Under the pieces are notes generated by a model, which did not search any database, was not told the DNA's origin, and worked only from the letters and a program-made list of their open reading frames with translations. The position numbers and the translations under genes were made by a program. A stretch of DNA of 32,964 nt from NCBI GenBank assembly GCA_025354795.1, contig JANXMF010000181.1, positions 1-32,964 of the forward strand, given 5' to 3'. Origin of the DNA: Pseudobdellovibrionaceae bacterium (lineage in GTDB: Bacteria; Bdellovibrionota; Bdellovibrionia; Bdellovibrionales; UBA1609). Of this stretch, positions 2,985-7,190 are shown piece by piece (the stretch's first letter is position 1; every line of letters begins with the position of its first letter).

Positions 2985-3629
2985 GTGCGACTTCGTGGAA
3001 AAACATTTCTGATTGCCTTAACGACGGCCTTGCTCCTATTGAGCAGCTGTAGCCGTCCACAGGGTCCCCAGGCCTCATGCGATTTCGTTCAGAGCCCCGA
3101 AATGCAACGGGTGTCGTGGAAGGGGCGCTTTCCCATCCGTATCTATCTTCATAAGTCGGTTCCCGTGGGCGCCTATGAGGCGATCGACCTGGCTGTCAGC
3201 CAATATAACGCCACTATTGGCGATGGCCGCGAACTCATTCGCATTGAGGCCCGCGGTGTTGACGGTGAGCTCAACCCAGTTAAAGACGGATACTCAACTA
3301 TCTATTGGTATAAAACTTGGGATACAAATCGTCCGACGGAGCAGGCGCGCACCACGATCTATTGGAGTGGCGTTGAGATTTTCGAAGCCGACATGCGCAT
3401 CAACGAGGCCAACTTCAAGTACACGTTCAGTTCGACTGGGGCCAACGCCTCTTCGATTTCACAAAGCACGGTCGACTTATATAGTTTAGTGCTGCATGAG
3501 TTTGGCCATGTCTTCGGCTTGGCGCACACCACTGCTCAAGGCAGCGCCATGAACGCGGTATTGAGTGAAGGACAGGTGAGGCGCAAATTGGGCACCACGG
3601 ATATCAATAATCTCAAGTGCGAGTACTGA
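2985..3629 (+). CDS. Small metzincin (matrixin-like) zinc metalloprotease, predicted lipoprotein
   Basis: 214 aa. N-terminal hydrophobic segment ends in a lipobox-like LLSSC. HEFGHVFGLAH fits HExxHxxGxxH, followed by a candidate Met-turn (GSAMNAV). GTG start. Confidence 0.82.
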   Translation: MRLRGKTFLIALTTALLLLSSCSRPQGPQASCDFVQSPEMQRVSWKGRFPIRIYLHKSVPVGAYEAIDLAVSQYNATIGDGRELIRIEARGVDGELNPVKDGYSTIYWYKTWDTNRPTEQARTTIYWSGVEIFEADMRINEANFKYTFSSTGANASSISQSTVDLYSLVLHEFGHVFGLAHTTAQGSAMNAVLSEGQVRRKLGTTDINNLKCEY

Positions 3630-4020: not shown

Positions 4021-5562
4021 TCAAGCCTTCGGAATCCTAACCGTCATAACCCCGTTGTCCCACGAAGTATGCATCAGCTTATCCCGCACTGGATGTGCAA
4101 GCGGAATTTCCTGGCGAAACGTTTGATAACTATGAGTGGCGAAGCGGCCGTCGTCGCCCTCCACATTGTCCTCAAAGCGACGCGCGCCTTCGACCACCAA
4201 ATGATTTTCATGAGCAATCACCTTAATATTTTCACGTTCCTGCTCCGGCACGTGGGCGCGCACAATGTAGTGTGAGTCGGTTTCGCTCAGCTCAGCCTTG
4301 GGCTGGGTGATGCGGTAGAACGGATCCGATTTTTTACTCGCGTATTTGCCGACGTCGCCCATGAGAGAGCGTTTTTCACGCACCAGGGTTTCGAGCAACT
4401 TTTCACGCTGTTCATGGACGGCGGTTTCAAAGGCCACCAGGTTTTTGTTGAAACTGTCTTGGTAGTTCTTGCGCTGCTGGAGCAAGGCCGCGTGGTAAAA
4501 ACTTTTGCCTTGCTGTTCTTCAGCTTGAAAGGCCTCTTCGTTAGCCTTGAGATCGGATTCGTGATCGTCACGCAGTTTTTTGAGCTGCTGTTTCTGATCC
4601 TTTTCCATAATGGCGAGGCGGTAATCTAGAGTTTCTTTTTGATGGTGCAGCTCTTCGTCACCCTTTTTGTGGATGACGGCGATGTTTTTATCATAGAACT
4701 CGCGGGTTTTCTCGAGGCTGTTGGTGCCGCGGGCCTTCTCTTTGTCGACTTCGTAGCTGGTTTGCTTTTTAAGCTGCGTGACCTTGGCGGTGGCGTCTTG
4801 CTGCTGGCGGCTCATCTGATCGCTGGCGCGTTTTCTGAGCTCGCTTTGGGATGTCACAAACTGCTGGCGTTCGGTTTCGAGAGTTTTGTCGGCGAGGCTG
4901 CGCTGTTGATCGGTCTGCTGTTTGCTCCACTCATTTAGTTTACTGAGTGTGGTCTTTTTTTCAGCCTCGAGGCGTTGGATGTCCTGGTGTCTTTGTTCGC
5001 CCATTTGCTGGAGTTCTTGCTGGCCTTTGCTATTGAGTTCGGATTTTTTTTCCTGGTTTTTCAAATGCAGACGTGTGAGTTCAGCTTGCTCTTGCGCGGA
5101 AATGGCCGAACGCCGCTCGCCCACTTCGCGACTGAATGCGCCGACCGCTTCACTTTCTTTGCGGTGCAGATCGCCCTCCAGCTTTTCCTGTTCACCCAAA
5201 TTTTTGCGCAATTGGCTGTCTTTGGCTTTGAGTTCACTTTCGAGCTGTTCGATTTCCTCAGCACCGTGCTCGCGCGCATTTTGTGAACGCTTGCTGAGAT
5301 CTTTACGCTCATAGGTGAGCTTGTGTTCATGGTCGGCTTTGATTTGTTCGAGTTGCTCTTTGTTGCCGCTGCGGAGGTGGCTGACCACGGCTTCGCCCGA
5401 GTCCACTTCGGCGCGCACTTTGGTGCGATTCTCTTGGCGCGCCTTTTCCAGATCGCTTTGGCCTTCGGCTTCGACGTCCTTCTTGCGTTTGCGATAGGAC
5501 TCTTGCAAATCGCGCAAGTCTTGCGGCGAATTGCCGCGCTCAGATTGGATCTCCGATCCCAT
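4021..5562 (-). CDS. Long coiled-coil protein with C-terminal Hsp20/alpha-crystallin domain
   Basis: 513 aa. About residues 1-400 are dense in E/K/Q/R/L with heptad-like character. The last ~100 residues (AELSETDSHYIVRAHVPEQERENIKVIAHENHLVVEGARR...FRQEIPLAHPVRDKLMHTSWDNGVMTVRIPKA) match the alpha-crystallin domain pattern, including the terminal GV-x-TV-x-IPK strand. Confidence 0.85.
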   Translation of the reverse strand: MGSEIQSERGNSPQDLRDLQESYRKRKKDVEAEGQSDLEKARQENRTKVRAEVDSGEAVVSHLRSGNKEQLEQIKADHEHKLTYERKDLSKRSQNAREHGAEEIEQLESELKAKDSQLRKNLGEQEKLEGDLHRKESEAVGAFSREVGERRSAISAQEQAELTRLHLKNQEKKSELNSKGQQELQQMGEQRHQDIQRLEAEKKTTLSKLNEWSKQQTDQQRSLADKTLETERQQFVTSQSELRKRASDQMSRQQQDATAKVTQLKKQTSYEVDKEKARGTNSLEKTREFYDKNIAVIHKKGDEELHHQKETLDYRLAIMEKDQKQQLKKLRDDHESDLKANEEAFQAEEQQGKSFYHAALLQQRKNYQDSFNKNLVAFETAVHEQREKLLETLVREKRSLMGDVGKYASKKSDPFYRITQPKAELSETDSHYIVRAHVPEQERENIKVIAHENHLVVEGARRFEDNVEGDDGRFATHSYQTFRQEIPLAHPVRDKLMHTSWDNGVMTVRIPKA

Positions 5563-5613: not shown

Positions 5614-5883
5614 CTAGTTCCGGCGGGTCTTGCCTTCAGGCCGCGCGCAGATGGACTTTAAACCTGAGGTATTGCCGCGACAGCGCCAGGTCGCGCGGTA
5701 AGTAACTTTTTCCGTAAGCTTGACCGGATAATAGCCACGATATTGGTTGGGATCTAGCGAGGAAATCACCACGCGCTCCTGACCACTGGTCTTGTCGGTG
5801 ATCACCAGCTCAAAGGCGCGGTACTCCGCGTGAGTGAAGAGCGGCAGGAAAAGGAAAAGCAAGAGGGGGCTGCGCATACCCAC
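5614..5883 (-). CDS. Small exported hypothetical protein
   Basis: 89 aa; N-terminal MGMRSPLLLFLFLPLFTHAEYRAF resembles a Sec signal peptide with an AxA-like cleavage region. Confidence 0.65.
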   Translation of the reverse strand: MGMRSPLLLFLFLPLFTHAEYRAFELVITDKTSGQERVVISSLDPNQYRGYYPVKLTEKVTYRATWRCRGNTSGLKSICARPEGKTRRN

Positions 5884-5907: not shown

Positions 5908-6231
5908 TTAATGGCAGCTGGAGTCTGAGCTCATCAGCGAATTGTCGACGATATGAAAGTACGTGCGCAGCAGCAGCTCAAACGATTCGGGGTCGAGGCC
6001 ATGGAGATAGGCTTGTTTGCCATGAAAAGTTTCTTGCTGTACGAATTGCGAGAAAAGGTCCTGAATCTTGTCGAGGTTGCGCAGGTTAAAAAGCTTTTCT
6101 TCTTCGGTCGGAACCTTCAAGATGCGCGCAATTGTCTCATTATCGAACAACAGGTGAATTCCGTTGAGAGACTGTGCTAGCAGGTGTTCGATCTGATCGA
6201 GATGAGAATCGCTAATTCGGAGTTCGTTCAT
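5908..6231 (-). CDS. Hypothetical cytoplasmic protein
   Basis: 107-aa ORF with normal amino-acid composition; no family recognised. Confidence 0.6.
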   Translation of the reverse strand: MNELRISDSHLDQIEHLLAQSLNGIHLLFDNETIARILKVPTEEEKLFNLRNLDKIQDLFSQFVQQETFHGKQAYLHGLDPESFELLLRTYFHIVDNSLMSSDSSCH

Positions 6232-6401
6232 TCCTTCATAGTTGATTTGAAAGAGATGAGGCGCAAGGGAAAACTGAGACCGTTTGACTAACCGGACTCG
6301 GGTGGTATCATTATTGAAAGCCAGACTTTTGTCTGACTCAACTTGCGACAGCTTGTTGGTGTATAATTATGACTATGTCGAGAATTTCGCGAAAAAAGAC
6401 C

Positions 6402-7190
6402 ATGGAACCAATCGTCATCGATAAAGATGAGGGATTGGTGTTTCAAAGTGAAGATGAACTCTACGCCCATTTTGCTAAAGAGATCACCGTACTCGAGACT
6501 GAATTTTTTAAGATTCGGGGCAGCAACGATATCAAAGAGCAAAACTTTGAGCAGTACGATACGCAGCTCGAGAAATTGCTCGATGATCCCGACGAGGTTT
6601 GGGAAGACTCCGACACCCTAGCAAAACGTCGCATGTTTATTTATGTGCGGCGATTTGAAACCAACGTGACGCACGTGGCGGCTTGCTATCTCACCGATAG
6701 CACGCCAAGTTTTGTTTACCTGCATTTTCCGACCATCGACGAAGCCCTAGTGACCCAGTACCGGCGGGGGCAGATGGTATTTCAGCGTTCGGCCTTGGAT
6801 GTGCTTCCCGGAGCCATTGATGGCGATGCTTTGCACGAGGGCGACGATCTCGCGCTTGGACTTTACAAAGCGATGCTATTGTTACGCAGTGAAAAGGATA
6901 TTTCAGAAGAGGATTTTCATCTGTTCGCCGACAATCGCGAAGAAACGCTCGAAGACGCCGATGAAATCTGGCGTAGCAGCGATTCGCTGGGCAACGTTCT
7001 GGTGAGTTTCATCAAAGAATTTGGCGATGAGGATGAGTTCTCCTACGTCGTGGTCACGGTCGAAGACGCACCGAGCGGCAGTCATGCGTTGTTGTTCTCG
7101 TTCCCGACGCGTGATAAAGGTTTGCTCGACCGTTACCGTCATGGTGAAAATTTGCAAGCCGAAGAAGTCGTGCAGGAGTCCTCGCATTAA
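6402..7190 (+). CDS. Protein with two tandem copies of an ~85-aa module, possibly of the BECR/PBECR nuclease-fold type
   Basis: The track ORF begins at 6369, but a TATAAT lies at 6362-6367 directly before it, so the ATG at 6402 (MEPIVIDKDEG) is favoured. Internal repeats: DPDEVWEDSDTL...FPTIDEALVTQYRRG and DADEIWRSSDSL...FPTRDKGLLDRYRHG. Confidence 0.7.
   Translation: MEPIVIDKDEGLVFQSEDELYAHFAKEITVLETEFFKIRGSNDIKEQNFEQYDTQLEKLLDDPDEVWEDSDTLAKRRMFIYVRRFETNVTHVAACYLTDSTPSFVYLHFPTIDEALVTQYRRGQMVFQRSALDVLPGAIDGDALHEGDDLALGLYKAMLLLRSEKDISEEDFHLFADNREETLEDADEIWRSSDSLGNVLVSFIKEFGDEDEFSYVVVTVEDAPSGSHALLFSFPTRDKGLLDRYRHGENLQAEEVVQESSH

Follow-up and report, generated by a model that had tools for sequence, protein, structure and literature searches.

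We describe a gene in a Pseudobdellovibrionaceae bacterium whose product appears to be a Bdellovibrionota-specific variant of the small heat-shock proteins (sHSPs), in which a long hendecad coiled coil takes the place of the disordered N-terminal arm and serves as a rod-shaped spacer that would hold alpha-crystallin domain (ACD) heads off an N-terminal anchor. Weighing sequence comparison together with a predicted structure, we consider the chances of this reading to be about even. The gene was found in a stretch of 32,964 nucleotides (the window), and the coordinates of the rod-ACD protein, its parts and its neighbours are collected in Table 1.

Table 1. Features of the rod-ACD locus, in window coordinates
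Feature	Position	Strand	Description	Basis
Rod-ACD protein, whole gene	4021..5562	-	513 aa, ATG start	ORF, homologues
Rod, first predicted helix	4762..5526	-	residues 13-267	AlphaFold2 model, periodicity
N-terminal rod motif	5371..5397	-	residues 56-64; G-[ED]-AA-[IV]-N-H-I-[RK], here GEAVVSHLR	alignment, entropy ranking
Low-confidence model break	4720..4761	-	residues 268-281; hendecad register continues through	AlphaFold2
Rod, second predicted helix	4339..4719	-	residues 282-408	AlphaFold2 model
DPFY motif	4315..4326	-	residues 413-416, rod-ACD linker	alignment, entropy ranking
ACD	4027..4293	-	residues 424-512	Pfam, AlphaFold2 model, phmmer, fold matches
c2	5614..5883	-	89 aa, small exported protein; apparent signal peptide, then 'AEYRxF...W.C...C..P', two invariant Cys	synteny, alignment, model
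c3	5908..6231	-	107 aa, unknown family, ends in invariant His	synteny, alignment, search
c1	6369..7190	+	273 aa, divergent, two PBECR2 stretches (Pfam 3.6e-16)	synteny, Pfam
c4	2985..3629	+	exported matrixin-like metallopeptidase (Pfam M10 1.3e-8), convergent	synteny, Pfam

A first-pass annotation, made from the window's letters alone, had claimed a minus-strand reading frame of 513 residues whose last ~100 residues follow the Hsp20 pattern, and both points hold. The frame is present with a start codon and homologues; a chance reading frame or artefact was ruled out, as the same length and layout are found in homologues from dozens of genomes. The C-terminal domain is a member of the Hsp20 family by sequence and by predicted fold: Pfam places HSP20 (PF00011) at residues 426-512 (E = 1.8e-9, 38.0 bits against a curated cut-off of 20.8), a phmmer search of residues 412-513 against PDB sequences returned sHSPs only (best 7e-5), and all 50 matches listed in a PDB fold comparison of the model are sHSPs. 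The model shows the beta-sandwich of the family, with seven strands at residues 424-427, 431-437, 446-450, 454-469, 472-487, 498-502 and 505-512. The AlphaFold2 model was predicted for the monomer with 28 homologues as input and reaches moderate confidence (mean pLDDT 76, pTM 0.25), and such a monomer-only model is counted against the reading of a rod spacer with ACD heads. At E ≤ 1, Pfam found no domain besides HSP20 on the 513-residue protein and, in particular, no DivIVA-like N-terminal domain. Since no signal peptide or transmembrane stretch is visible in the 513-residue sequence, the protein is taken as cytoplasmic.

Periodicity of the rod

The part of the protein ahead of the ACD had been described as a highly charged, heptad-like coiled coil. 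It is highly charged (about 38-39% of residues), and a long coiled coil is supported by the two predicted helices, but the repeat is hendecad rather than heptad, with a hydrophobic period of 3.66-3.67 in the 513-residue protein. Over residues 10-405 of an alignment of 28 homologues (A1), the hydrophobicity spectrum peaks at a period of 3.66 with a power of 3.56, and power is 3.22 at 11/3 versus 0.04 at 3.5; in each of the four quarters of the rod, taken separately, the peak lies at 3.64-3.68. When each sequence is taken alone, the strongest period lies at 3.62-3.71 in 65 of 66 homologues and at 3.45-3.55 in none, with a permutation p ≤ 0.02 in most. The heptad reading was rejected on this near-zero power at 3.5.

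Grouping the residues by their position modulo 11 shows one that is hydrophobic in 75% of cases, mostly Leu, Ile or Val, and is the core a-position; four residues before it stand Tyr, Asn, His, Phe or Gln and three after it Gln, Leu or Ile, giving the a, d, h pattern by which hendecad cores are defined (PMC9858780). A single register runs unbroken from residue 19 to 404, about 36 hendecads in all, and the a-positions at 261 and 272, which flank or fall within the low-confidence break of the model, are 93% hydrophobic. Taking 396 helical residues at 0.148 nm each, the predicted rod would be about 58 nm long (about 55-60 nm).

The rod is very hydrophilic and rich in Gln, Glu and Lys, with 17-18% L/I/V/M/F, and the polar core residues Q363 and Q385 are conserved. 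According to Martinez-Goikoetxea and Lupas, hendecad packing requires small core residues (Ala) and otherwise leads to higher oligomeric states (PMC9858780). Since Ala makes up just 5.9% of the rod and the a-position is Leu or Ile, we infer that the oligomer would have three or four strands.

Conserved ends and rod length across relatives

The strongest conservation in the rod lies close to its N-terminus. H62 is the most conserved rod residue by entropy ranking, and it is off the hydrophobic core register, as is the whole conserved N61-H62 pair. Conservation of a residue that does not face the core suggests that the H62 region is a binding surface. The NHI motif was seen in Bdellovibrionales and is absent from family members of other classes, and a common N-terminal anchor is therefore supported for Bdellovibrionales only. 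At the other end of the rod, all 28 aligned homologues share D413, F415 and Y416. D-x-F-Y occurs in 66 of 66 family members, a count that is partly due to selection, the family-collecting profile itself including the D-x-F-Y columns, and the 20 classical sHSPs from these genomes all lack it.

The assembly of sHSPs is usually explained by a disordered arm and by contacts between an IxI motif and a groove. The rod-ACD chain stops at the last ACD strand, one residue past 'PK', and the IxI extension, which the first-pass annotation had reported as missing, is indeed absent here. Across the family, the tail after the last strand has a median of 4 residues versus 16 in the classical set, and [IV]x[IV] after the last strand is found in 4 of 66 family members, three of these abutting the strand, versus 18 of 20 classical sHSPs; the comparison set consists of 20 sHSPs from the same genomes and leaves out L106, a short protein that itself belongs to the rod family. 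The one classical-length HSP20 protein in the window's own genome has a tail without an obvious IxI. In a distant family (f16), the members L080-L083 and L050 extend beyond the ACD by another 55-64 residues; these extra tails are Pro-, Arg- and Lys-rich and partly alike.

Canonical bacterial sHSPs (Hsp20/IbpA/HspA, PF00011) thus share with the rod-ACD protein the ACD itself, as judged by Pfam, the expected strands and the listed fold matches, and differ from it in several respects: they have a short disordered arm where the rod-ACD protein has a hendecad N-terminal arm of ~410 residues, and the latter has a DPFY linker, has no IxI tail and has its ACD in a separate clade. The earlier suggestion of a protein structurally unlike classical sHSP cages is well supported at the level of sequence by a predicted ~36-hendecad rod in place of the disordered arm and by the loss of the cage-closing IxI tail in 62 of 66 members, and assembly into the usual small ball-shaped particles of sHSPs is, on these sequence features, unlikely.

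Between the two conserved ends, length changes in a regular manner. Among 24 full-length rods of the window's and neighbouring families, residues 18-410 show no gap other than a single 11-residue deletion, and the spacing between the N-terminal motif [GN]xAA[IV]NHI and DPFY, which was read from a regular-expression table except in L007 and L008, taken from the 28-homologue alignment, is 352 residues (32 x 11) in nearly all 24. Other distances are 341, 319 and 308, all multiples of 11, and the Bdellovibrio-type members read have 257 (23 x 11 + 4). Two short members have distances of 103 and 139, and many members of more distant families have open frames of about 390-415 residues in the phylum profile table. 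Two rods with 254 and 274 residues between the motifs fit no steps of 11 or 4, and are counted against the spacer reading. Rod length thus ranges between genera from almost none to about 36 hendecads, the lower extreme being a genus of the Bdellovibrio family in which three genomes (G134, G150, G198) encode proteins of 215-255 residues with the rod almost gone and both the NHI segment and the D-x-F-Y-ACD part kept. Since this nearly rodless genus keeps both ends, it is the ends that look functional, while the rod resembles a spacer, the length of which would change mostly by amounts that preserve the alignment of the helix face. The earlier proposal of a scaffold-tethered protein fits the two conserved ends (AAxNHI and DPFY-ACD) joined by a variable, mostly register-keeping rod. 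In a further genome of the same genus, G042, a 134-residue N-terminal piece with TAAAVNHIK and no ACD (locus L109, 2241-2645) still lies behind c2; the ACD is dispensable in this genome, which is also counted against the spacer reading.

The strongest rival, which we nonetheless judge unlikely, is that of a cytoskeletal element in which the rods bundle end-to-end or side-by-side into intermediate-filament-like filaments, with the ACD acting not as a chaperone but as an assembly or cap domain, comparable to the Ig-fold tail of lamins. A long rod of conserved length followed by a small terminal beta-sandwich is an intermediate-filament-like layout, FilP and Scy, two cytoskeletal proteins of bacteria, also have hendecad rods (PMC9858780), and without IxI the route by which sHSPs usually assemble is lost. 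A rod that varies between genera from almost nothing to its full length fits a tether better than a filament of fixed stagger, however, and differences from FilP and Scy also count against this rival. FilP and Scy of Actinobacteria have, like the rod-ACD protein, long rods largely of 11-residue repeats, but they combine a DivIVA-like N-terminal domain with Ala-rich cores and have no ACD (PMC9858780), whereas the protein described here has no DivIVA match, Leu or Ile at its a-positions and a C-terminal ACD. The comparison with lamins and intermediate filaments, which also place a small beta-sandwich after a long rod of near-fixed length, is an analogy only, as their rods are mostly heptad and their terminal domain has an Ig fold rather than an ACD, and no homology to the rod-ACD protein was found. 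In the same lineage, Bdellovibrio bacteriovorus has an intermediate-filament-like coiled-coil protein, Ccrp (Fenton et al. 2010, cited in PMC8938487), which PMC8938487 gives as the sole such protein of this species; Ccrp is probably distinct from the rod-ACD protein, no Hsp20 domain being described for it in the literature consulted.

The same length data bear on a second rival, in which an otherwise ordinary sHSP carries a solubilising extension, similar to LEA proteins, that raises charge, solubility or desiccation tolerance with no defined oligomer. While its hydrophilic, Gln/Glu/Lys-rich composition and the extreme length changes in some genera are what such an extension would have, a strict register over ~36 hendecads, indels that mostly come as 11-residue or +4 steps, and the conservation of Q363 and Q385 in the core and of N61-H62 off it are unexpected in a solubility tag and make this explanation improbable.

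Neighbouring genes and distribution in the phylum

The rod-ACD gene is directly preceded by c2, at a distance of 51 nt, and c3 lies 24 nt before c2 on the same strand. These spacings suggest an operon c3-c2-rod with c3 as its first gene. At least one of the cluster neighbours is kept in 18 of 20 other loci, including loci from other families of the phylum. In a set of 59 relatives, c2 and the rod gene occur together in 42, the rod alone in 2, c2 alone in 2 and neither in 13 (Fisher p = 2.5e-9). With the exception of G042, all genomes lacking the rod are 2.4 Mb or smaller, and the co-occurrence is partly explained by genome reduction combined with adjacency. The genes c3 and c1 are retained in many genomes that lost the rod, c1 being conserved in 52 of the 59 relatives.

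The PBECR2 pair of c1, named for a phage barnase/EndoU/colicin/RelE-like nuclease, has been vertically kept. The c1 protein ends in SH and c3 in H, and this C-terminal His is invariant in all aligned relatives (alignments A4 and A5), while the residues just before the terminal His of c3 vary. The metallopeptidase encoded by c4 is of matrixin type, has a Cys near the end of its signal and is a convergent neighbour in most Bdellovibrionales loci examined; its membership of the cluster unit is uncertain. No CIRCE heat-shock operator was found in the window, which is counted against the spacer reading, and a promoter scan gave no more sites than shuffled sequences.

The model of c2 is confident and shows a small alpha-beta protein, and its comparison with PDB folds gave no significant match and hence no function. 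As the best-correlated neighbour of the rod gene, c2 is predicted to be exported, a misfit with a purely cytoplasmic partner that speaks against the spacer reading. An 11/3 periodicity is also typical of lipid-binding 11-mer helices. An amphipathic helix that lies flat on a membrane or droplet, as in perilipins or alpha-synuclein, and so carries the ACD to the membrane would share this period and suit an exported, envelope-type neighbour, but is the least probable of the alternatives, given a rod with 17-18% L/I/V/M/F and about 38% charge that is poor for membrane insertion, one dominant hydrophobic position per 11 flanked by polar core Gln, Asn and His, and a constrained length with phase-keeping indels that suggest zipping partners.

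In a tree of 87 ACDs, built on 94 columns and unsure at its inner forks, the rod family forms one side of a branch with support of 100/99, apart from classical sHSPs. The first-pass annotation had named the taxonomic distribution of the architecture as a check, and it is found across Bdellovibrionota and, in the collections scanned, nowhere else. At E ≤ 1e-8, profile A1 has matches in 162 of the 192 genomes that were sampled phylum-wide; some of these matches cover the ACD alone and may be classical sHSPs. One short peptide pattern, run against about 85,000 species genomes, gave 16 relatives, which all belong to Bdellovibrionota by title or tree and include Bdellovibrio bacteriovorus kdesi and Halobacteriovorax marinus; a relative titled 'Proteobacteria' groups inside the rod family in the ACD tree. 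On plasmids, the matches were confined to the ACD and belong to ordinary sHSPs, with coverage of the query always below 80%. A phage origin was rejected, as viral contigs gave no relatives. Within the collections scanned, these matches indicate that the rod-ACD architecture is restricted to Bdellovibrionota. In the literature consulted, nothing relevant was found that links Bdellovibrio to small heat-shock (Hsp20, alpha-crystallin) proteins or to PBECR2, and the family is apparently an undescribed, phylum-wide variant of the sHSPs. The hendecad survey by Martinez-Goikoetxea and Lupas, in J Struct Biol in 2023, may already list these rods as sequences.

Assembly and wider meaning

Under the preferred reading of a rod spacer, a hendecad coiled coil, long and nearly straight, would have taken the place of the short disordered arm of an sHSP, and several chains may zip in parallel along it. 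Parallel zipping would mean that the coiled coil governs oligomerisation, in place of contacts between IxI and groove. The N-terminal segment would dock on a cytoplasmic partner or structure, and the ACDs, probably paired as in other sHSPs, would be kept at a set distance from this anchor. They could then work as client-binding, ATP-independent holdase heads or as adaptor heads, a putative chaperone or scaffold activity.

A broader reading, which we regard as doubtful, is that of a cytoplasmic 'ruler' of this predatory phylum, in which a parallel multi-stranded rod of set length would position ACDs at a fixed distance from the anchor, in a cluster with the PBECR2 pair, c3 and the exported c2, and would make up a new type of cytoskeletal element, one that bears a chaperone and is linked to the predatory cell cycle.

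The rod-ACD proteins are an sHSP family without the disordered arm and the IxI contacts, with a geometry apparently set by a rod of counted repeats, and could thus serve as a natural test of how an ACD functions when mounted on a stick. For coiled-coil research, the rods add a long, regular natural series of hendecads. The spread over the phylum, the single clade and the conserved cluster make the family a candidate lineage-specific system in a poorly known cell biology, and genetically tractable hosts exist, such as Bdellovibrio bacteriovorus.
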